Program-made: the position numbers and the translations under genes | Shown here: in pieces, positions 44,069 through 55,785 of the stretch | Layout: every line of letters starts with the position of its first letter | Numbering within the stretch: position 1 is the first letter of the stretch | Origin: Hyphomicrobium facile | Lineage (GTDB): Bacteria > Pseudomonadota > Alphaproteobacteria > Rhizobiales > Hyphomicrobiaceae | Assembly: GCF_900116175.1 (NCBI RefSeq) | Contig: NZ_FPCH01000005.1 | Coordinates: 188,501-252,500, forward strand | DNA length: 64,000 bases | Direction of reading: 5' to 3' | Notes under the pieces: model-generated | Database searches by the model: none | What the model was told of the DNA's origin: nothing | The model's input: the letters and a program-made list of their open reading frames with translations, nothing else

Positions 44069-44707
44069 ATGAGCATTGCGCAGGAGAAAGATTTGCGCAG
44101 CGCTGGCGGATCAGAGGCGGTCGCCGAGGGGCAACTCGCTCTCAAATCACCACGAGAGCGAATTCTGATCGCAGCTCGCGATCTCTTCTACCGGCACGGC
44201 GTGCATGCCGTCGGCGTGGAAGCAATCGCCGAGGCGGCGCTTACAAACAAGATGACATTATACCGTCACTTCAAATCGAAGGACGAACTGATCGTCACAT
44301 ACGTTCAGCAGCTCGCCAATGAAGGCGATGACGTACTCAATCGCATTTTGGCCGAGAACACAGAGAGCCCGCAAAAACAAGTCGATGCGTGGGTCGGTTT
44401 TGTCGAAGACGTGCTGACGAACAAGTTGGAACGCGGCTGCGCGCTGGCGAATGCCGCCGTCGAACTCGATACCGGCCACCCGGCCCGCGCGGTGATCGAA
44501 GCCTATAAACAGCGAAAGTACGACCGCCTCGTCGGGCTCTTCCGTGCTGCGCGATATCGCGATCCCGATTTGCTCGCCGATGAAGTGTTTCTTCTGTTCG
44601 AAGGCGCGCGGATCAGCATTCAATGCGGCGGCAAGGGCCCGGCATCGCGCGTCGTCGGGATGCTGCGTGGACTGCTCTCGTCGCGGCCGAGGTTGGTCGA
44701 AGCATAG
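44069..44707 (+). CDS. TetR-family regulator of the RND efflux operon
   Basis: A 212-residue TetR-type repressor. The helix-turn-helix is at about residues 38-75 (ARDLFYRHGVHAVGVEAIAE, LTNKMTLYRHFKSKDELI). The C-terminal ligand domain has typical helices (QVDAWVGFVEDVLTNKLERG, EAYKQRKYDRLVGLFRAARY). It is divergent from the adaptor and pump genes and lies directly after a double palindromic operator, so it very likely represses them and itself, and dissociates on binding a pump substrate. The start is the first ATG after the operator; a weak ribosome site AAGGGCGC precedes it. Confidence 0.93.
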   Translation: MSIAQEKDLRSAGGSEAVAEGQLALKSPRERILIAARDLFYRHGVHAVGVEAIAEAALTNKMTLYRHFKSKDELIVTYVQQLANEGDDVLNRILAENTESPQKQVDAWVGFVEDVLTNKLERGCALANAAVELDTGHPARAVIEAYKQRKYDRLVGLFRAARYRDPDLLADEVFLLFEGARISIQCGGKGPASRVVGMLRGLLSSRPRLVEA

Positions 44708-44883
44708 GCTGCGATCTCTATCGTTTCCGCGCCACGCGAACGCATCCTGGTCGCTGAGTACAACTGCCTAGGTACTAGGCGTTCAGCACAAGCAGCTGGC
44801 AACGCACTCACCCACACGCGAAGATTTCCTGCTTTTTTCCAGCGAAAAAGCCTTGGCACGCCCCGTGCAGAGCATGGCGCATA

Positions 44884-44992
44884 ACGCCTCTAGGGTTCCG
44901 GCTTCACAAGCGTCAGGTCCGAGAGAGGCTCTCCCGCCGCGTGTGAACCGCGGCGGAGCCACGGCGGGATAAAAGCCCGGGAGACCTACACC
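44884..44992 (+). ncRNA. Guanidine-I (ykkC/yxkD) riboswitch
   Basis: The conserved blocks of the ykkC aptamer are present in order: CTAGGGTTCCGG (44890-44901), CAGGTCCGAGAGAGG (near 44915-44928) and ACGGCGGGATAAAAGCCCGGGAG (44961-44983, in part GGCGGGATAAAAGCCCGGG). The final GGGAGA is at 44979-44984. This aptamer binds guanidinium and turns genes on. It lies 135 bases upstream of the ABC transporter gene of the guanidine operon, so it senses the substrate of the pathway below. Confidence 0.93.
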
Positions 44993-45015
44993 GCGAGTTG
45001 CTCCGGCGCTCGAAC

Positions 45016-45120
45016 GGACAGGCCTCCCTCCGCGCGCTCTCACGGCGCCCATCCGAGGTCTTCCGCTCCTGTCTCGAAGTTCCTTGCGGCCTCACTGAGT
45101 GGTCAGCACAAGGACAGGGG
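45016..45120 (+). promoter_or_regulatory. Putative expression platform that can hide the ribosome site
   Basis: CTCCTGTCT (45066-45074) can pair with AGGACAGGGG (45111-45120), which includes the ribosome site of the ABC binding-protein gene, by nine base pairs with two wobbles. A second copy of the same pairing partner, GGACAGG (45016-45022), is nearer the aptamer and could take the anti-site instead. Two mutually exclusive pairings give a translational ON switch. This is inference from sequence only. Confidence 0.45.
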
Positions 45121-45126
45121 TTGGCG

Positions 45127-46191
45127 ATGCGCTTTTCCGTCAAGCAAGTTTTGAAGGCTGCGATCGGCCTCGCGGCCGTGACAGGGTTTGCCCTGTCGCC
45201 TGCAAATGCGGCCGAGAAAAAAGACTTCAAAGTCGCCTGGTCGATTTATGTCGGCTGGATGCCATGGGGCTATGCGGCCGATTCCGGCATCGTGAAAAAA
45301 TGGGCCGACAAGTACGGCATCAACATCGAAGTCAAACAGTTCAACGACTACGTTGAATCCATCAATCAATACACGGCAGGCGCGTTCGACGCCGTCACCG
45401 TGACGAACATGGATGCGCTCTCCATTCCGGCTGCCGGCGGCGTCGATACGACGGCCGTGATCGTCGGCGACTTCTCGAACGGCAACGACGCCGTCATCCT
45501 GAAGAACAAGGACAAGCTCGCGGACATCAAGGGCCAGAACGTCAATCTCGTCGAGTTCTCGGTTTCGCATTACCTGCTCGCGCGCGGTCTCGAAAGCGCC
45601 GGGCTCGCCGAGAAGGATCTGAAAGTCGTCAACACGTCCGACGCCGATATGGCGGCTGCCTACAAGACGGCAGACGTCAGCGCTGTCGTGACTTGGAAGC
45701 CCATCGTCTCGACGATCCTTGAATCTCCAGACGCAAAGAAGGTCTTCGACAGCTCGCAAATTCCGGGCGAAATCATCGACCTCATGGTCGTCAACACGGC
45801 CGTGCTGAAAGACAACCCGAAGTTCGCGAAGGCGCTCGCGGGGATCTGGTACGAGACGCTTGCGACGCTGAAGGACGGCACAGTTTCGAAGGAGGCCATG
45901 GCCAAGGCTTCGGGCACCGACCTCAAAGGCTTCGACGAACAGCTCGCGACGACGAAGCTGTTTTCAGATCCGAAAGACGCCGTGGCGTTCACCACCGGCA
46001 AAGATCTGAAGACGACGACTGAGCGCGTCTCCAAATTCCTGTTCGAGAAATCCCTGCTCGGCAAGGACGCGAAATCCGACGGCGCGATCGGCGTCGAATT
46101 CCCCGACAAAACGGTCTTCGGCGACAAGTCGAACGTCAAGTTCCGCTACGACGCGACGTTCATGAAAGAGGCGGAAGACGGCAAGCTTTAA
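45127..46191 (+). CDS. ABC transporter substrate-binding protein (NitT/TauT type; probably guanidinium uptake)
   Basis: A 354-residue periplasmic binding protein. A signal peptide (MRFSVKQVLKAAIGLAAVTG, cleavage after ANAA) is followed by a two-lobe domain of the NitT/TauT type (IYVGWMPWGYAADSGIVKKWADKYGI, shown in part) found with urea/guanidine carboxylase genes. The guanidine-I riboswitch lies upstream and the permease and ATPase genes follow, so it likely binds guanidinium, or another nitrogen-rich cation, and passes it to the permease. The ATG at 45127 after AGGGG is chosen; an in-frame ATG at 44998 would start inside the riboswitch region. Confidence 0.9.
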   Translation: MRFSVKQVLKAAIGLAAVTGFALSPANAAEKKDFKVAWSIYVGWMPWGYAADSGIVKKWADKYGINIEVKQFNDYVESINQYTAGAFDAVTVTNMDALSIPAAGGVDTTAVIVGDFSNGNDAVILKNKDKLADIKGQNVNLVEFSVSHYLLARGLESAGLAEKDLKVVNTSDADMAAAYKTADVSAVVTWKPIVSTILESPDAKKVFDSSQIPGEIIDLMVVNTAVLKDNPKFAKALAGIWYETLATLKDGTVSKEAMAKASGTDLKGFDEQLATTKLFSDPKDAVAFTTGKDLKTTTERVSKFLFEKSLLGKDAKSDGAIGVEFPDKTVFGDKSNVKFRYDATFMKEAEDGKL

Positions 46192-46230
46192 GCCGCCGCT
46201 TCTCGTAACGCACCGAAGGAAGGCGACCGC

Positions 46231-47049
46231 ATGCGCGCTATCAACTACCGGCCGGACAAGACCTGGCGCCTTGCCCTCGCCTTCCTGCCATTCGCATTAC
46301 TCATACTCACCTACATTATCGCTTCCGACATTCGACTGACCGAAAATCCGAACGACAAGCTTCTTCCGTCTTTCGCCAAGATGGGCGAAACGATCGACGC
46401 TTACGCGATGAAACCCGATACGCGCACGGGCGATCATCTGCTTTGGGCAGATACGTCGGCGAGCCTGACGCGTCTCATCGCGGGCCTTGCCATCTCGACG
46501 GCCATCGCGCTCGTTCTCGGCATCGTCATCGGGGTGCTGCCGGTCATGAGCGCCACACTCGGGCCAGTCGTGGCGGTGTTATCGATGGTGCCGCCACTCG
46601 CGCTCCTTCCCATTCTCTTCATCGTCATGGGGCTCGGCGAAGCCTCGAAGATCACCCTGATCGTCGTCGGCACATCGCTGAAACTCATTCGCGACATCGC
46701 GCTTCGCGTGGAAGACATTCCGCGCGAGCAGCTCATCAAGGCGCAGACGCTCGGCGCATCGACGCCACAAATCGCCTTGCGCGTCGTGCTGCCGCAAATC
46801 TTGCCGCGACTGATCGATTCCGTTCGGCTGGAAATCGGTCCGGCGTGGCTCTTCCTGATTGCAGCCGAGGCGATCGCAGCCGATTCCGGTCTCGGCTACC
46901 GCATCTTCCTCGTTCGCCGCTATCTCTCGATGGATGTGATCCTGCCCTATGTCGCGTGGATCACGCTTCTGGCGTTCCTCATGGATCTTTCGCTCCGGCT
47001 GCTTCAACGCAAGTCGTTTCCCTGGTTTGCCGAAGCGAGAGCAGCATGA
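46231..47049 (+). CDS. ABC transporter permease (NitT/TauT type)
   Basis: A 272-residue inner-membrane permease with about six transmembrane helices. The coupling motif with the EAA loop is visible in LIKAQTLGASTPQIALRVVLPQILPRLIDS (part), a short motif that contacts the ATPase. The N-terminus has a first TM segment at about residues 15-35 (FLPFALLILTYIIAS). It is 39 bp after the binding-protein gene and overlaps the ATPase gene by four bases (ATGA), so these are translated together. Confidence 0.92.
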   Translation: MRAINYRPDKTWRLALAFLPFALLILTYIIASDIRLTENPNDKLLPSFAKMGETIDAYAMKPDTRTGDHLLWADTSASLTRLIAGLAISTAIALVLGIVIGVLPVMSATLGPVVAVLSMVPPLALLPILFIVMGLGEASKITLIVVGTSLKLIRDIALRVEDIPREQLIKAQTLGASTPQIALRVVLPQILPRLIDSVRLEIGPAWLFLIAAEAIAADSGLGYRIFLVRRYLSMDVILPYVAWITLLAFLMDLSLRLLQRKSFPWFAEARAA

Positions 47050-47885
47050 ACGCCATCGTCTTCGACAAGGTTTGGAAAGAATACGGCGATCACGTCGTGC
47101 TCGAGCAGATCAATCTCGAGATCGAGACGCGCTCGTTCGTGGCGCTGGTCGGCCCATCGGGATGCGGCAAGACAACGTTCCTGCGATTGCTCCTCGGCGA
47201 AGAGCGGCCAACGCGCGGCAGCATTCTCGTCGAAGGTGTGCCGCTCAAAGCGGAGCCCGATGCGGACCGCGGCGTCGTCTTTCAACGCTACTCGGTGTTT
47301 CCGCATCTGACGGTTCTGGGCAACGTCATCATCGGACGAGAGTTCGAGAAGGCCGGCGCTCTCGGCCGCTTATTCGGCCGCGCGCGCAAACAGGCGGAAG
47401 ACGACGCGCGCGAGCTTCTCACCGCTGTCGGCCTCGCCGGCCAGGAGGCAAAATATCCGGCCGCGCTTTCGGGCGGAATGCAGCAGCGCCTTGCACTGGC
47501 GCAGGCGATCATGCGGCGGCCGAAGGTGCTTCTGCTCGACGAGCCTTTCGGCGCGCTCGATCCCGGCATCCGATCCGACATCCACGTACTGATGCGGCGC
47601 ATCTGGAATGAATCCTCGCTGACGGTCGTGATGGTGACGCACGACCTCAGCGAAGCTTTCGAACTCGGTACGCGCATCATCGCTTTCGAGCGGCCGCGCA
47701 ACCGGCCCGAGGAACTCGAGCGATATGGCGTCAGGCTTTCGGCCGACATTCCGACGCCACCTCCGACGGCGCCCGCTCTTCCGAAGGGCGCGACGATCAC
47801 CAAGGATATCGAGATCTGGCCGAAGAAAGTTGCAGGGAGCCCAGGCGTTCTAACGCGTCACGGGCATTCTGCTCCGCGCTCTTAG
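47046..47885 (+). CDS. ABC transporter ATP-binding protein (NitT/TauT type)
   Basis: A 279-residue ATPase with Walker A GPSGCGKTTFLRLL, Q-loop VVFQRYSVFPHLTVLG, signature LSGGMQQRLALAQAIM, Walker B VLLLDEPFGALDP and switch His in VMVTHDLSEAF. The C-terminal 60 residues (SADIPTPPPTAPALPKGATI) are a short proline-rich tail and not a regulatory domain. It starts by ATGA overlap with the permease gene. 113 bases later begins the deiminase gene, and the gap holds a second guanidine riboswitch. Confidence 0.95.
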   Translation: MNAIVFDKVWKEYGDHVVLEQINLEIETRSFVALVGPSGCGKTTFLRLLLGEERPTRGSILVEGVPLKAEPDADRGVVFQRYSVFPHLTVLGNVIIGREFEKAGALGRLFGRARKQAEDDARELLTAVGLAGQEAKYPAALSGGMQQRLALAQAIMRRPKVLLLDEPFGALDPGIRSDIHVLMRRIWNESSLTVVMVTHDLSEAFELGTRIIAFERPRNRPEELERYGVRLSADIPTPPPTAPALPKGATITKDIEIWPKKVAGSPGVLTRHGHSAPRS

Positions 47886-47902
47886 GTGTTCACGCTTTCC
47901 GC

Positions 47903-47947
47903 GAGGGACGACCCTCAGCGGCTTCTCACGAACCCGGGACGACCCGG
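47903..47947 (+). ncRNA. Guanidine-II (mini-ykkC) riboswitch, inside the operon
   Basis: Two hairpins with identical GGGACGACCC centres: GAGGG-ACGA-CCCTC (47903-47916) and CCGGG-ACGA-CCCGG (47934-47947), separated by 17 bases. The mini-ykkC class consists of two such stem-loops with ACGR tetraloops that bind guanidinium. It lies between the ABC ATPase and deiminase genes, 51 bases before the deiminase start, whose ribosome site is GAGGAA. It would give the enzyme genes a second, separate guanidine control. A covariance search was not run. Confidence 0.85.
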
Positions 47948-47998
47948 ACTGGTGCGCCAGCGGCGTCTTTCAAGGAACGTTTCTGCTTTGAGGAAAAA

Positions 47999-48733
47999 AT
48001 GGGGAATTTGATCTACGGGGATACGCTGCCAGGAGGTAAGCACTGGTCGCTGCTGATGCGCCGAAACATGCGGCTGCGCCTGACCGATGTCGAGGGCGGC
48101 GCCAACATCGGCATGCTCTTCTACAATCCGCAGAATCTGCTCGAGCGCTATAACGCGCCCGATACGCTGAAATGTCAGCACACGTTCAAGCTCACCACCG
48201 GTCACTGCCTCTACTCGGATATGGGCCGCATCTTTTGCTCGGTCGTGTCGGACACGTTCGGCTGGCACGATACGGTCTCCGGCAATACGACGAAGGCCAT
48301 CGTCGCGCGGAAGTGGGGTGAGAAAAACTATCAGACGGCGCGCAACGACTGGCAGCAGAACGGCCACGACAGCTTTCTCGTCGAAGGGGCGAAGTATGGA
48401 CTTGGCCGCCGCGACTTGGCTGCGAACGTCAACTGGTTCAGCAAGATCGCCGTCGCGTCCGACGGCGCGATGTCGCTCGATACTTCGGCTGCGAAGGCCG
48501 GCGCTCAGGTCGAGTTGCGCTTCGAGATCGATACGCTCGTTCTCTTCCACACCTGCCCCCATCCCTTGAATCTCGCGAATGCCTATCCCCGGAAAGCAGT
48601 GCACTTCGAGATCTTCGAGGGGCCGCCCGCGGCGCTCGATGACCCCGCGCGGCTTTCCGCGCCCGAGAACGAACGCGGTTTCGAGAACAACCGCATTTTC
48701 CTCGCCGGTTGCTGTGGAGACGGGCATCAATGA
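47999..48733 (+). CDS. Carboxyguanidine deiminase subunit (larger DUF1989/UAAP protein)
   Basis: A 244-residue protein of the DUF1989 family, annotated in databases as urea carboxylase-associated protein. Its family was shown to be carboxyguanidine deiminase (CgdAB), which removes ammonia from carboxyguanidine to give allophanate. Motifs are [35 protein letters not shown] and, at the C-terminus, [11 protein letters not shown] with a conserved cysteine that likely binds metal. The ATG at 47999 has a GAGGAAAAA site before it. The second subunit gene overlaps its stop codon (ATGA), so the two are made in equal amounts. It is not stated which is CgdA and which is CgdB in this order. Confidence 0.93.
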
Positions 48734-49377
48734 TCAAAGAAAGCACGCTTCGCGAAGTCGACGCGATCTATCGCCGTATCGTTCCGGCCGGCGAATATTG
48801 GATGCACGTCGTCTGTGAGGGCGAGACCCTTCGCCTTCTCGATCTCGAAGGCAATCAGGCGGCCGATACTCTGTTCTTCAACGCCGATGATCCGGCGGAA
48901 CGCTACTCGGCGTCCGACACCATCCGGGAGCAAGGCAATATCTATCTGACCGCTGGTTCGGTGCTTCGTTCCGATATCTGCCGTCCGATGCTGACGATCA
49001 CGGCCGATACGGTCGGGCGCCACGATACACTCGGCGGCGCGTGCGCGACGGAGAGCAACACCGTTCGCTACGCACTCGAGAAGAAATCGATGCATGCGTG
49101 CCGCGATAGCTTCCTGCTCGCGATCGCCGAGAACGAGCAGTACGGCCTCTCGAAACGCGACATCGGACACAACATCAACTTCTTCATGAACGTGCCGGTT
49201 ACGCCCGAAGGCGGGCTGACGTTCGAGGATGGTCTGTCGGCGCCGGGCAAATACGTCGAGATGACCGCGCACATGAACGTCATCGTGCTCATCTCGAACT
49301 GTCCGCAGCTCAACAATCCTTGCAACGCCTACAACCCCACGCCGATCGAAGTTCTCATCTGGGGTAAGGGGGCCTGA
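48730..49377 (+). CDS. Carboxyguanidine deiminase subunit (smaller DUF1989/UAAP protein)
   Basis: A 215-residue DUF1989 paralog of the previous gene. It has [38 protein letters not shown] and a cysteine-rich C-terminal motif [20 protein letters not shown] that, with that of the first subunit, should hold the metal centre. Both subunits are needed for activity in the characterised enzyme. The start at 48730 overlaps the preceding stop by four bases. The carboxylase gene follows after five bases. The presence of both UAAP genes is a good sign that this carboxylase works on guanidine. Confidence 0.93.
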
Positions 49378-49382
49378 CGTCC

Positions 49383-52300
49383 ATGTTTCGCAAAGTCCTG
49401 ATCGCCAATCGCGGCGCCATCGCCTGCCGTATCATCAGAACGCTCGACCGCATGGGGATTGCGAGCGTCGCAGTCTATTCCGAGGCCGATCGCCATTCGA
49501 TGCATGTCCGCCAAGCGGGCGAAGCCGTCGCCATTGGCCCATCACCCGCGGCCGAGAGCTACCTCAAGTTCGACGCCATACTCGAGGCTGCAAAGAAGAC
49601 CGGCGCGGAAGCCATTCATCCGGGTTACGGCTTTCTGTCGGAAAATCCCGATTTCGCGGACGCGTGCGAAGCGGCGGGCATCGTGTTCATCGGGCCGAAG
49701 GCGAAGCACATGCGCGCCTTCGGATTGAAGCACAAGGCGCGCGAGCTTGCGCTTGAAGCAAATGTTCCATTGGCGCCGGGTTCCGGGCTCATCAGCGATG
49801 TCGAACACGCCAAGAGCGAAGCCCAGCGCATCGGCTATCCCGTGATGATCAAGAGCACGGCGGGTGGCGGCGGCATCGGGTTGCAACTCGTTTCGACCGC
49901 GGATGAAATCGCGCCGATGTTCGAGCGCGTCGAACGCCTCGCCCGCAACAACTTCAAGGATGCCGGTATCTTCATCGAGAAGTATGTGGCGCGCGGCCGC
50001 CACATCGAGGTGCAGATTTTCGGCGACGGCCGCGGCAACGTCGTCTCGCTCGGCGAACGCGATTGCTCGGCGCAGCGGCGCAACCAAAAGGTCATCGAGG
50101 AGACGCCTGCGCCAAATCTTCCCGAGGAGACGCGCGCGGCGCTCTGGGAGACGGCTCGACGCCTCGGCCAGTCCGTCAATTACGAAAGCGCGGGCACCGT
50201 CGAATATCTCTACGACGCCGAGACGAACGAGTTCTATTTTCTCGAGGTCAATACGCGGCTTCAGGTGGAGCATGGCGTGACCGAAGAGGTCGTCGGCGCC
50301 GATCTCGTCGAATGGATGGTGCGGCAGGCGGCGGGAGAATTGCAGCCGCTCGATCAATCCAAGATTTCGCCAACGGGCGCATCGATCCAAGTCCGGCTTT
50401 ATGCGGAAGATCCGGCGCGCGATTTCCGGCCAAGCTCCGGCCGGTTGACCGACGTTTCCTGGCCAAAGGTCGCGCGCATCGAGACGTGGGTGCAGAGCGG
50501 CTCGGACGTTTCGCCCTACTACGATCCGATGATTGCGAAGATCATCGTCAAGGGTTCGTCACGCGAGGATGCGCTGGCGCGACTTCGATCGGTGCTCGAT
50601 CAAACGCGCATCGGCGGTCTCGAAACCAATCTCGATTATCTTCGCCAGCTCGCGGGCTCCAGTGTCTTCGCGAAAGCCGAGATGCTGACGCGGACGCTGC
50701 AGACATTCGCTTATAAGGCCGACACGATGGAAGTTCTGTCGCCGGGCACGCAGACGACGGTCCAGGATTGGCCGGGACGTGTCGGCTATTGGGCGGTCGG
50801 CGTGCCGCCGTCAGGCCCCATGGATGCGTTGTCGTTTCGCTTAGCCAATCGCATTGTCGGCAACGACGAAGGCGCTGCCGGGATCGAGACGACGCTCGCG
50901 GGGCCGTCGCTCAAGTTCAACACCGACGCAGTGATCTGCCTCGCGGGGGCGGAGCTGACGGCGACGCTCGACGGTGCGCCTGTGGTCTACTGGGAGGCCA
51001 TCCAGATCAAGGCCGGACAGGTGCTGAAGATCGGCGGCGTGAAGGGGCCGGGCGTGCGGGCCTACATCGCCGTTCGCGGCGGGATCGACGTTCCGTCGTA
51101 TCTCGGAAGCAAATCCACGTTCACGCTCGGCAAGTTCGGCGGTCACGGCGGACGCGTTTTGATGACGGGCGACGTGCTTCACATCGGCCGCGACGCGACG
51201 AGCTTTCCTTCGGCGCGTCTTCCGGCAGAGCTTAAGCCTCGCCTCGTCCATACCTGGGATATCGGCGTTCTCTACGGTCCGCATGGCGCGCCAGATTTCT
51301 TCGCGCCGGAATACATCGACACGTTCTTCTCGAGCGATTGGGAGGTTCATTACAATTCCAATCCGACCGGCATTCGCTTGATCGGACCGAAGCCCGTCTG
51401 GGCGCGCACCGACGGCGGCGAAGCCGGGCTTCATCCAAGCAATATTCACGACAACGCCTATGCCATCGGGACGATCGATTTCACCGGCGACATGCCCGTC
51501 ATCCTCGGCCCCGACGGTCCGTCGCTCGGCGGCTTTGTGTGCCCCGCCACCATTGTGCAAGCCGAGCTTTGGAAGATGGGTCAGCTACGGCCGGGCGACA
51601 AGGTGCGCTTCACGCGTCTCTCTCCCGCCGAGGCGGCCGCGCGCCTTGCCAAGCAGAACGCAGAGATCGCAACGCTGAAGTCTATCGCCGCGCCGTCGTT
51701 TCCGCATGCGAAGTGGGGCGCGGACGATTGCATCGTCGGCGGCCGCGAGGCGTCCGGCGACAAGCCGCGCGTCGTCTATCGCCGCGCGGGCGACGCTTAC
51801 ATGCTCGTCGAGTACGGCCCGATCATCCTCGATTTCACGTTACGCTTCCGCGCGCACGCGCTGATGACCGCTCTCGAACAGCGAAAGCTGGGGGGCATCC
51901 TCGATCTGACGCCCGGCATCCGATCCTTGCAGGTCCATTACGATAGTACGGCGCTGCCTCTCGAAGATTTGCTCGCGGAGCTTTCGCGCATCGAAGATAC
52001 GCTCGGAGACTTGAGCGACATCGAGGTGCCGTCGCGCATCGTGCATCTGCCGCTGTCGTGGAACGACCCCGCAGTGCAGAAGACGATCGACAAATATATC
52101 CAGGGCGTCAGACCCGATGCACCTTGGTGTCCTTCGAACATCGAGTTCATCCGGCGCATCAACGGCCTCGAGTCCATCGAGGACGTGCTGAGGATCGTGT
52201 TCGACGCGACGTACGTCGTACTCGGGCTCGGCGACGTGTATCTCGGTGCGCCGGTCGCGACGCCGGTCGATCCGCGTCATCGTCTCGTCACGACGAAATA

Positions 52301-53003
52301 CAATCCGGCGCGAACGTGGACACCCGACAACGTCGTCGGCATCGGCGGCGCTTACATTTGCATTTACGGCATGGAGGGCCCCGGCGGCTACCAGCTATTC
52401 GGCCGGACGTGCCAAGTCTGGAACACGTATCGCACCACGGACGCGTTTGAAGCCGGGTCGCCGTGGCTTTTGCGGTTCTTCGATCAGATCCGTTTCTATC
52501 CGGTCTCGAGCGAAGAGCTGGCCGCGTTCCGCGACGGCTTTCTCGAAGGGAAGGCCAACGTCAAAATCGAAGAGACAACGTTTCGTCTCAGGGACTATCA
52601 GGCATTCATTGCCGAGAACGAAGAGTCGATCGGCGCCTTCAAGTCGCGTCAGCAGGCGGCCTTCGAGGCTGAGCGGGCGCGCTGGCAGCAAGTCGATCAG
52701 GAAGGCGCCGCGGGCGCGTCAGACGGCGACATCGAAGATGACGGAGCCGCCGTTCTGCCGCCGGGAGCCACCGCCGTCGAGAGCCCGGTTCCCGGCAGCG
52801 TCTGGAAGGTTCTCGTCGAGCCCGGAACGACGGTCGCCGAGGGCGAGACCCTGATAATCGTTGAGTCGATGAAAATGGAAATGGCCGTGCCGGCGCCGCA
52901 AAGCGGGGTCGTTCACGAAGTGCGCTGCGTCGAAGGGCGGGCTGTGGCCCTTGGCCAGGCTCTCGTTATCCTAAGAGAGCCACATGCGGAGGCGACGGCG
53001 TGA
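49383..53003 (+). CDS. Guanidine carboxylase (urea carboxylase-type biotin enzyme)
   Basis: A 1206-residue biotin carboxylase that in this operon context should carboxylate guanidine with ATP and bicarbonate. Biotin carboxylase is residues 1-450 ([34 protein letters not shown]-grasp loop, [20 protein letters not shown]). A carboxyltransferase part follows with AHS2-like (about 460-790; [19 protein letters not shown]) and AHS1-like (about 830-1040) regions, then the biotin-carrier domain with the lysine in [13 protein letters not shown] (Lys1164). It was earlier called urea carboxylase; guanidine use rests on the two riboswitches and the adjacent deiminase genes. Its start is five bases after the preceding gene. 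Confidence 0.93.
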
Positions 53004-54784
53004 CCCTATCACTCGACATCGCAAATCTCACCGCTCTCTACGAACGCGGAAAGACGACACCCGAAGCAACGATCGAAGAGATCTTCGCGCGCATCGGGGC
53101 GAAGGACGTTGCGCCCGACTGGATCGCGCTTCGCGATAAGGAGAGCGTTCTCGATAGCGTTCGCCGCGCGCCGCGGGGGCCCCTTTACGGCATTCCATTT
53201 GCCGTCAAGGACAACATCGACGTCGCCGGGATGCCGACGACATGCGGTTGTCCGGCTTTCGCCTACGTGGCCGAGCGTTCGGCGACGGTCGTCGAGCGGC
53301 TCGAAGCGGCCGGCGCCATCCTGATCGGCAAAACGAACCTCGACCAGTTTGCGACCGGGCTCAACGGCACGCGCTCGCCTTATGGCATTCCGGCGAACGT
53401 CTTCAATGCGGACTACATTTCCGGCGGCTCGAGCTCGGGTTCGGCCGTCGTCGTCGCCGCGGGTCTCGTTTCGTTTTCCCTCGGTACGGACACGGCGGGA
53501 TCGGGCCGCGTTCCGGCGGCCTTCAACAACATCGTGGGTCTGAAGCCGACGAAAGGCATCATCTCGACGCGTGGCGTGGTGCCTGCCTGCAAGAGCCAAG
53601 ATGCGGTTTCGATTTTTGCGCTCACCGTTGCGGACGCCGCCAAGGTTGCAGAAGCAGCCGTCGCCTTCGACAAGGACGACTGTTTCGCGCGGGCCGACGC
53701 GCCGTCATTCGCCGTCGAGACCGCCGGGCGTCCGCTGAGAATTGGCATTCCCAATGCGCCGCTGTCGTTTTTCGAAGATGGCGAGTATCAGCGGCTCTAT
53801 CATCACACGATCGATCGCCTCGCCGGGCTCGGCGCCGAGATCACCCCCTTCAACTTCGCGCCATTTCGCGACACGGCGGCCATGCTTTACGACGGTCCGT
53901 GGGTGGCCGAGCGGCTGTTTGCCGTCGACGACATGAACGACGATGACCTTCATCCCGTCGTTCGCGACATCATCCATAACGGCCGGAATAAATCCGCGCT
54001 CGCGACGTTCGAGAGCTTTTATCGACTCGCGGAGTATCGCCGCGCGGCGGACGCCGAGTGGAACCGCATGGACGTGATGGTGCTGCCCACGGCGGGCACG
54101 ACGTACAAAATCGCCGATATGCTGGCCGATCCCGTTCGCCTCAACTCGAACCTCGGCGCGTATACGAATTTCGTCAATCTCCTCGACCTCTCGGCGCTCG
54201 CCGTTCCGGCGGGCTTTCGCGAGGACGGTATCCCGTTCGGCGTGACACTGATCGGCCGCGCATTCGCCGACGGACAACTCGCGGCGATCGGTGATGCTCT
54301 TCACCGCGCGCTCGATGGTGCGAAGCTTGGCGCGACGCAGGCTGCATTGTCCGATGCCGCGCCAGTCGCCGCGAAGCCCGCCAAGAAGAAGACGGTCGAG
54401 GTCGCGGTGGTCGGCGCGCATCTCAGGGGCCAGCCGCTCAACAGCCAGCTCACCGAGCGAGACGCCATCTACCGGGAGACGGCGCGCACGGCTGCGGGAT
54501 ACCGGCTTTACGCCTTGCCCGGCACGACCCCGCCGAAACCGGGCCTCGTCTTCGAAGGCACCGGGCCGGGTGCGATCGAAGTCGAAATCTGGGAAATGGA
54601 CGAGGCCGCGTTCGGGTCGTTCGTGGCGCTCATACCGGCCCCGCTCGGGATCGGGACGCTTGTGCTCGAAGGCGGCCGGCAGGTGAAAGGCTTCCTTTGC
54701 GAAAGCCATGCCGTTCGCGGGGCCGAGGACATTACGGAGTTCGGGGGCTGGCGGGCCTGGCTCGGCCGGACGGCTGTCGCCTGA
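53000..54784 (+). CDS. atzF: Allophanate hydrolase
   Basis: A 594-residue amidase-signature enzyme that hydrolyses allophanate to two ammonia and two CO2. The amidase domain is residues about 20-450 with the Ser-Ser-Lys triad: [19 protein letters not shown] (Lys in VKD), [18 protein letters not shown] and the G-T-D-T-A-G-S-G-R segment. A C-terminal domain of the AtzF type (about 470-594; [27 protein letters not shown]) completes decarboxylation. It begins by GTGA overlap with the carboxylase stop, so translation is coupled. It completes the route guanidine to carboxyguanidine to allophanate to ammonia. Confidence 0.95.
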
Positions 54785-54963
54785 TCCGGTCGCCTCAAGA
54801 TGAAATAAATTGCTGCGAATACTGTGTTTTAGACGGCGGCTCGCCGTCGCGACGCCCTGTCTTGCGAAATAGATGACTGCGCCACCATATTAATGTAGTC
54901 TTTTATTCTAGATTTAGCGTCCCGGACGCATGAGATCGCCTTGAGGCGGCAAGCGAGGAAACG

Positions 54964-55785
54964 ATGCGCAACAGAATTATCCGCTCCACGATTGTTGCCG
55001 GACTGACGGCAGTCCTGGGGATGATCGCGGCTCAGTCAGGCGCGCGAGCCGATGACACGGCCGTCATCTGGGACAGCATCCGGACAGATCTTTTCGGAAC
55101 GCGCGAGGTTGCGGACGGCGCCGGGAAAGTAGCGCTCGAAGCGCCGTACCGGGCGGAAGACGCCTCCACGGTTCCCCTCACCGTTCGCCTTCCAACTGAA
55201 TTCGCGAAGGACGTGAAATCCCTGACGCTCGTCATCGACAAGAACCCCTCCCCCGTCGTCGCGACCTTCACGTACGGCGACGCGGCCGGCAACGGCGAAC
55301 GCGTTCTCGCCACGCGCGTCCGCATTGACCAATATTCGAATGTCCGCGCGATCGCCGAGACGAACGACGGCAAACTATTCATGACGATCAAGTTCGTGAA
55401 GGCGTCGGGCGGCTGCTCGGCTCCGGCCGGCAAGGACCCGGAAGAAGCGGCGAAGACGATGGGCAAGATGAAGGTGATGACCGCTTTCAAGGACCCGGAT
55501 AACGTGGCTGCACAAGAAGCTCAGGTGATGATCCGTCATCCCAACAGTTCGGGCTTGCAGATGGATCAGGCGACCGGCCTCTATATCCCGACGCATTTCG
55601 TGGACAAGGTTGCCGTGAGGACGGGCGGCAAAACCGTTTTCACGATGACCGGCGGCATCTCGATCAGCGAGAATCCGAACTTCCGATTCACCTATCAGGG
55701 CAATCCCTCGGACGTGATGAGCGTCGATGCGGAAGATTCGCAAGGCAACACGTTCAAGGGCAACTCTACTCCGAGCCAATCCTGA
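54964..55785 (+). CDS. Fused SoxYZ-like sulfur carrier
   Basis: A 273-residue periplasmic protein with a signal peptide (MRNRIIRSTIVAGLTAVLGM, cleavage near ARA). It fuses SoxY-like (about 30-165) and SoxZ-like (about 170-273) parts. The carrier motif is KASGGCSAPAG, Cys151, replacing the C-terminal GGCGG of free SoxY. Such fused carriers are often found near quinoprotein dehydrogenases; here soxC and soxD follow, so it may carry a sulfane or persulfide on the cysteine that SoxCD oxidises. The start follows a GAGGAAACG site. The gap before it is 179 bp and holds the promoter; the neighbouring guanidine genes are unlikely to read through. Confidence 0.87.
   Translation: MRNRIIRSTIVAGLTAVLGMIAAQSGARADDTAVIWDSIRTDLFGTREVADGAGKVALEAPYRAEDASTVPLTVRLPTEFAKDVKSLTLVIDKNPSPVVATFTYGDAAGNGERVLATRVRIDQYSNVRAIAETNDGKLFMTIKFVKASGGCSAPAGKDPEEAAKTMGKMKVMTAFKDPDNVAAQEAQVMIRHPNSSGLQMDQATGLYIPTHFVDKVAVRTGGKTVFTMTGGISISENPNFRFTYQGNPSDVMSVDAEDSQGNTFKGNSTPSQS

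Follow-up and report, generated by a model that had tools for sequence, protein, structure and literature searches.

This study concerns a guanidine-use operon in a 64-kb stretch of the Hyphomicrobium facile genome (the window, meaning all 64,000 nucleotides analysed), in which RNA elements of two guanidine riboswitch classes are found. When the whole window was scanned against Rfam with cmscan, three matches exceeded the gathering score, Guanidine-I, Guanidine-II and one tRNA, and no other ykkC-type family passed its cut-off. The Guanidine-I (ykkC) aptamer stands at the head of the operon (44879..44985; RF00442, 80.0 bits, cut-off 63, E 1.2e-12), and the Guanidine-II (mini-ykkC) element, made of two ACGA hairpins, lies 2.9 kb further on (47900..47947; RF01068, 40.0 bits, cut-off 32, E 1.7e-4). 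Both are on the + strand, as are all the genes of the operon, within one run of importer, deiminase, carboxylase and hydrolase genes, and three genes separate them. A preliminary description of this DNA had proposed that a single guanidine-use operon contains two classes of guanidine riboswitch, which these scores bear out; both elements are present where it claimed them, its positions being off by 3-7 nucleotides (nt).

Behind Guanidine-I come the genes of an ATP-binding cassette (ABC) importer: a substrate-binding protein (45127..46191; TIGR03427 ABC_peri_uca, 541.6 bits, cut-off 333.9), a TauC/SsuC-like permease (46231..47049) and an ATPase matching importer ATPase families (47046..47885), the last two scoring under the curated cut-offs. 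Guanidine-II is followed by cgdA and cgdB, for carboxyguanidine deiminase subunits A (UAAP1, DUF1989; 47999..48733; TIGR03425, 320.9 bits, cut-off 205.95; PF09347) and B (UAAP2; 48730..49377; TIGR03424, 335.9 bits, cut-off 284.7), by gca, for a carboxylase of the urea carboxylase family (49383..53003; TIGR02712, 1896.5 bits, cut-off 1303.85), and by an atzF-like allophanate hydrolase gene (53000..54784; TIGR02713, 784.5 bits, cut-off 511.05). The junctions in this operon are 4-nt overlaps or gaps of 5-39 nt, the sole long gap being the 113 nt that hold Guanidine-II, and from this spacing it is likely that importer and catabolic genes share a single transcript. The closest named relative returned by the CgdB search was a Hyphomicrobium sp. 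metagenome-assembled genome (MAG; NZ_JAIELN010000005.1), whose CgdB is 100% identical over 215 residues and whose Guanidine-II differs from that of the window at 3 of 48 bases.

The carboxylase carries the signature of a guanidine enzyme. Its Asp699 aligns with Asn1330 of the Kluyveromyces lactis urea amidolyase (5i8i) and its Asp951 with position 1584, and Asp at these two K. lactis positions is the rule given, in the accessible part of PMC11410670, for calling a guanidine rather than a urea carboxylase. With Asp at both sites, the window enzyme is, as judged from its sequence, a guanidine carboxylase. The same residue occupies the discriminating site in 58 of the 60 readable carboxylase rows (of 62), window included; the gca genes of two Hyphomicrobium guanidine-riboswitch operons, L062 and L105 (L denotes a locus and G a genome in our labelling), have Asn there, the urea-type residue.

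The case for the internal element goes beyond its Rfam score. The centres of its two hairpins, GGGACGACCC, are identical, exactly as the preliminary description had it, and with conserved centres and supported stems the element has the two-hairpin, ACGR-loop architecture of its class. The GACG..C centres are invariant in all 40 Guanidine-II sequences aligned. In the 38 distinct ones, 92.8% of the cells pair, and 9 of the 13 pairs have changed on both sides, a count that 4 of 500 shuffles reach. The covariation score of 0.491 compares with 0.136 on average after shuffling (reached by 0 of 500) and with at most 0.165 for slid pairings. Alignment-based folding without a guide recovers the same two hairpins, one pair shorter. 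On this covariation, the Guanidine-II RNA is under selection. Folding of the leaders, treated below, yields no clear switch, as would be expected of a relic without function; the double-sided changes, the invariant centres and the retention of the same slot in the sampled Alphaproteobacteria make a relic very improbable. A second, borderline Guanidine-II on contig C3 of the window genome (L078:6074-6123, - strand, 32.5 bits, cut-off 32), lying about 200 nt upstream of a gene for a LysR-type regulator, with one for an amino acid permease next to it downstream, was omitted from the alignments, and L071 and L078 were omitted from the distance tables.

The layout recurs in relatives within the order. 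Of 297 genomes sampled from it, with strict filters that lost some weak matches, 75 have a match to RF01068 and 71 one to RF00442 at E <=0.001 (68 and 55 over the cut-off), and 28 have CgdB (TIGR03424 over cut-off). We read the layouts of these 28 by hand from the listed positions: in 16, window included, Guanidine-I, importer, Guanidine-II, cgdAB and gca follow one another in that order on one strand, which agrees with the earlier placing of Guanidine-II where the importer genes give way to the catabolic ones, and shows that this place is kept in relatives. Searches with the window proteins (tblastn) found the gene order in each of the 15 co-linear relatives that, with the window, make up the 16. 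With the same proteins, the allophanate hydrolase was not found in L069 and was found only in part in L074; in L073 the gene in the cgdA slot matches CgdB better. Among the other CgdB genomes, eight have Guanidine-I immediately upstream of the cgdAB block with no Guanidine-II found, one (G203) has Guanidine-I ahead of the importer and Guanidine-II in the opposite direction, one (G117) has Guanidine-II alone with no Guanidine-I found in the genome, and in two neither element was found.

These variants bear on whether the operon is one unit. The catabolic block can stand alone, directly behind its own Guanidine-I in the eight genomes above and behind Guanidine-II in G117, so Guanidine-II could belong to a second promoter in or just before the 113-nt gap, the catabolic genes then being an independent unit. 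Such a promoter would need to be inside the ATPase gene, as only 14 nt separate the ATPase stop from Guanidine-II. A sigma-70 scan gave 0 sites in 44600-55000, which says little since shuffles give 1.8 and consensus scans miss other promoter types. We think two transcripts unlikely.

Across the phylum, the position of Guanidine-II changes. Co-linear Guanidine-I and Guanidine-II were found in 28 of 398 phylum genomes, namely five from the order (already counted), two others from the class and 21 from beyond it. Guanidine-II lies between the ATPase gene and cgdA in 16 of 16 co-linear pairs of the order (window included) and in both further class members; in all 21 genomes from outside the class it lies between cgdB and gca. 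A second Guanidine-I occurs on the same stretch and strand in 6 of these 21 (L083, L093, L096, L098, L099 and L101), giving three guanidine sensors, two Guanidine-I and one Guanidine-II, on one strand. We also took the best 80 named loci by likeness to the window CgdB and scanned them with covariance models built in this analysis (R1 and R2), which are biased to similar elements because they derive from previously surveyed sequences, and whose matches were read to E 1. Guanidine-II precedes gca in 51 of the 63 gammaproteobacterial loci (8 of these assignments resting on weak matches, E 0.012 to 0.16) and cgdA in one, 11 being without Guanidine-II; among 14 alphaproteobacterial loci it precedes cgdA in 11 and was not found in 3. 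The remaining loci are one Desulfuromonadia MAG and one unclassified proteobacterium with Guanidine-II before cgdA, and one Mycobacterium record without Guanidine-II. The gammaproteobacterial exception, L128 (Porticoccaceae MAG), scores 20.2 bits in our own model and 37.5 bits in Rfam.

A carboxylase tree was built with 61 rows, of which 55 carry a label; the two Guanidine-II positions need 2 changes on it against a shuffled mean of 18.6, the rows out of place being L081 and L128; on the CgdB tree they need 4. By these trees, the position of Guanidine-II follows the carboxylase. We also considered a gene swap. Trees of 40 operons placed the CgdB of the window family with sequences from outside the Alphaproteobacteria, and its carboxylase and importer with Alphaproteobacteria (approximately unbiased test against one alphaproteobacterial clade, p 0.031 and 0.021, the groups having been named after seeing the tree). 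We dropped the idea: resolution is poor in the 62-row tree of the short CgdB, where all but one of the 14 other T2-labelled Alphaproteobacteria form a divergent branch.

Operons of this kind have been described before, and the earlier statement that no operon with both classes was known does not stand: in PMC12508155 the two RNAs of an operon of this type were probed, and the accessible part of PMC12186494 contains enterobacterial ones. In Vreelandella (Halomonas) boliviensis, as in the window, Guanidine-I is in the 5' untranslated region and Guanidine-II inside an operon of the same gene families (PMC12508155), but there Guanidine-II lies between cgdB and gca, not between the ATPase gene and cgdA, and the operon has additional mgdH/mgdL genes. 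In the operons of Raoultella, Erwinia and Klebsiella, so far as the available text of PMC12186494 describes them, Guanidine-I likewise heads the importer part and Guanidine-II a second part; the deiminase, however, belongs to the Guanidine-I part, and Guanidine-II covers only carboxylase and hydrolase, whereas in the window it covers all catabolic genes. The gdx exporter genes in the same portion of that paper are preceded by the same aptamer class, from which the window element differs in its internal position and in preceding assimilation genes. Guanidine-II before cgdA, or guanidine riboswitches in Azospirillum or Hyphomicrobium, were not found in the literature searched (open-licence full text). 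The two-class operon is thus known already, its Guanidine-II position before cgdA is new as far as searched, and the most novel point is the Azospirillum tandem described below.

The measurements on V. boliviensis also bear on why two sensors would be kept, a question which its authors, in the part of the paper at hand, name as a possible subject of further studies. Both RNA classes of that operon bind guanidine: Guanidine-I with an apparent dissociation constant (KD) of 44 uM, specifically, methylguanidine not being bound, and Guanidine-II with KD values of 93 uM for guanidine and 83 uM for methylguanidine (PMC12508155). The preliminary description had uptake and catabolism tuned at different affinities. 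The two classes do differ in architecture, and Guanidine-II binds two guanidines cooperatively according to the available sections of PMC12186494 and PMC9481103, as would suit a ladder on which the two functions are switched on at clearly different guanidine levels. That claim is unproven: in the only operon measured in the sources consulted, the two constants are two-fold apart and the ligand range differs more. We regard such a ladder as doubtful.

The measured difference in ligand range invites another explanation, in which Guanidine-I would respond to guanidine only and Guanidine-II to guanidine or methylguanidine, widening the inducer range of the enzymes with no threshold involved. The whole V. 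boliviensis operon is reported, in the portion of PMC12508155 available, to rise on guanidine or methylguanidine, and by analogy with Vreelandella the window Guanidine-II may also admit methylguanidine. Elsewhere, a pair of genes next to the operon has a Guanidine-II of its own at its head in G203 (L071) and Microbulbifer (L115), the first gene encoding a 2-oxoglutarate/Fe(II) dioxygenase, and G001, of the window's family, carries the same gene pair inside its importer block. For the window itself, a tblastn search with the G203 dioxygenase finds nothing, and near-full-length matches among the alphaproteobacterial loci are confined to G203 and G001. We consider a division by ligand range possible, if on balance rather unlikely.

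We favour, as the probable explanation, a nested double gate, in which Guanidine-I acts on the transcript (or on translation of the first gene) and Guanidine-II on translation of the catabolic block. Both RNAs are predicted from their class matches to bind guanidinium, and would be expected to turn their genes on. Guanidine-I in the 5' leader would set whether the importer and enzyme transcript is made or the first gene translated, and Guanidine-II would then set translation of the cgdA-cgdB-gca-allophanate hydrolase block. In this way the first signal would suffice for making the importer, while the catabolic block, which uses ATP and biotin, would need intracellular guanidine at the translation step. 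The division into transcription and translation is carried over by analogy from the authors of PMC12508155, who presume transcription control by Guanidine-I and translation control by Guanidine-II; in the window, translation or Rho may be the target of Guanidine-I.

In the minimum-energy fold of the Guanidine-I leader without the aptamer, the 3' end of the aptamer plus 2 nt (44978..44987) can pair over 10 bp with 45056..45065, and this modelled helix is possibly the competing helix of the ligand-free state; CGGGAG helices resembling it by eye appear when L062 and L063 are folded but are absent from the fold of L064. In the same fold, a hairpin covers the Shine-Dalgarno-like AGGACA of the substrate-binding protein gene (45111..45116; unpaired probability 0.13). 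The Guanidine-II leader has a Shine-Dalgarno-like GAGG before cgdA (47990..47993). Across 42 Guanidine-II leaders, the distance from the second hairpin to the start codon is 12-28 nt in 32, as expected for control of initiation.

Several observations weigh against this mechanism. At a nearly invariant position of Guanidine-I, position 37 of the window aptamer, the window has an A (alignment A3 with 37 other Guanidine-I, 8 of 46 sequences having been omitted). The Shine-Dalgarno site corresponding to AGGACA is more open in L062, L063 and L064 (unpaired 0.51, 0.33 and 0.65), and this absence of the cover from relatives lowers our confidence in the mechanism. No terminator-like site was found in either window leader, so that any transcriptional control by Guanidine-I would need to be Rho-dependent, or else Guanidine-I control is also translational. 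Neither leader has a fold energy better than that of shuffles (z 0.58 and 0.61). In the window, the cgdA start codon lies 51 nt past the second Guanidine-II hairpin, and the distances in its group (41-51 nt, 4 of 4) are longer than in 32 of 38 other leaders. Finally, in two-state folding the Shine-Dalgarno site is more open with the Guanidine-II hairpins in just 9 of 36 leaders, by a crude calculation that leaves out loop-loop contact and ligand: 1 of 4 in the window group, 2 of 14 in other Alphaproteobacteria, 6 of 15 outside the class and 0 of 3 in Azospirillum. The 36 are what is left of the 42 leaders once five that lack an assigned start and one whose start is 103 nt off are set aside. 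The openness of the window cgdA site is 0.22 (to two decimals) in both states.

Intrinsic termination after Guanidine-I was also examined as a general feature, being flagged in 2 of 5 window-type leaders, 7 of 14 other alphaproteobacterial leaders and 7 of 27 outside the class. Both window-type flags (window and L062) fall within the coding region and hence are not leader terminators. Read by eye, L065, L069, L070 and L076 share a common hairpin followed by T4-5 after Guanidine-I, and the window has a small hairpin between Guanidine-II and the cgdA start (47948-47998).

The two classes come closest together in Azospirillum. In Azospirillum sp. TSO35-2 (L108:8986-9245), sp. B506 (L117:2368-2624), A. 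endophyticum (L126:8972-9231) and plasmid pAB510b of sp. B510 (L182:10997-11256; NC_013856.1), Guanidine-I and Guanidine-II lie in one leader, followed by cgdA; the importer genes come after the hydrolase gene in L108, L126 and L182, and the L117 record ends before that point. As these leaders are close relatives, we count them as one case, not four. Rfam Guanidine-I is over its cut-off in all (77.6-88.3 bits in L108, L117 and L126; 79.1 bits in L182). Guanidine-II is below the Rfam cut-off, with none listed for the first three and two pieces of 20.8 and 17.9 bits in L182, and model R1 gives 34.3-36.2 bits in L108, L117 and L126. The two centres are 40 nt apart against 21 in the window, and this 19-nt longer linker is probably the cause of the low Rfam scores. 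In all four leaders, Guanidine-I is 75-79 nt from the first GGGACG centre and the second centre 21-22 nt from the GTG start. The longer linker forms a 7-8 bp hairpin in three of them and the spacer after Guanidine-I a long hairpin in all four, behind which no U-tract was seen by eye.

Under a one-leader definition of a tandem riboswitch the window does not qualify; the four Azospirillum leaders have that layout by sequence. The SAM-II/SAM-V tandem, described in the accessible part of PMC9481103, resembles the window in that two classes serve one ligand, transcription being the predicted target of the first and translation that of the second. Those two share one leader, whereas the window sensors are three genes apart, and the Azospirillum leaders are the closer match. 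That 2022 survey, in the same portion, reports that its authors saw none of the four guanidine classes in tandem, and names Guanidine-I as one of the classes lacking such an arrangement; the Azospirillum leaders stand against this. Another source, PMC12452182, in the passages available, includes guanidine, on the strength of other work, in its count of classes for which contiguous riboswitches have been characterised, an entry which may refer to the two Guanidine-II hairpins. It also gives pairs of T-box and 'guanidine' elements before branched-chain amino acid genes; according to the available part of PMC7266159, guanidine is not bound by ykkC RNAs in that position. In the open-licence full text searched, the Azospirillum leader is the first guanidine-riboswitch tandem found. 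When 190 genomes of the class were searched by pattern for tandem leaders, the count was 0, an uninformative result as the first gap allowed was shorter than the Azospirillum spacing. Against plasmids, the Azospirillum leader matched 61 records; among the 40 listed, only B510 covers >80% of the query, and the remaining 39 cover at most one third.

We regard as moderately probable two designs that divide by carboxylase lineage, with Guanidine-II before cgdA in Alphaproteobacteria and before gca in Gammaproteobacteria, together with a tandem leader before cgdA where, as in Azospirillum, the sensors do not flank the importer genes, this tandem being a likely transcription-then-translation gate. 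The two designs differ in the enzyme guarded by the second sensor, and comparing them can separate explanations by threshold, by ligand range and by transcription and translation. The Azospirillum leaders, having both sensors on one short RNA, are the cleanest system for telling these explanations apart.

Further genes adjoin or lie inside some of these operons. In L071:6457-8212 and L115:4340-5875 (both - strand), Guanidine-II points away from the operon and is followed by the dioxygenase gene and a second gene; the Guanidine-II of L115 is weak (23.2 bits, E 0.12), as is the HRI1 match of the second gene in L071 (22.8 bits, cut-off 27). In G001 (L064:9198-10672), the same two genes lie between those of the binding protein and the permease, and a distance of 4.9 kb separates the sensors. 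The dioxygenase and its partner are possibly a methylguanidine demethylation pair, as MgdH/MgdL-like candidates. In a Moraxellaceae MAG, a Guanidine-II (L174:6850-6896, - strand; 41 bits with R1) adjoins the guanidine operon directly before a reading frame whose histidine motifs resemble, by eye, those of membrane desaturases.

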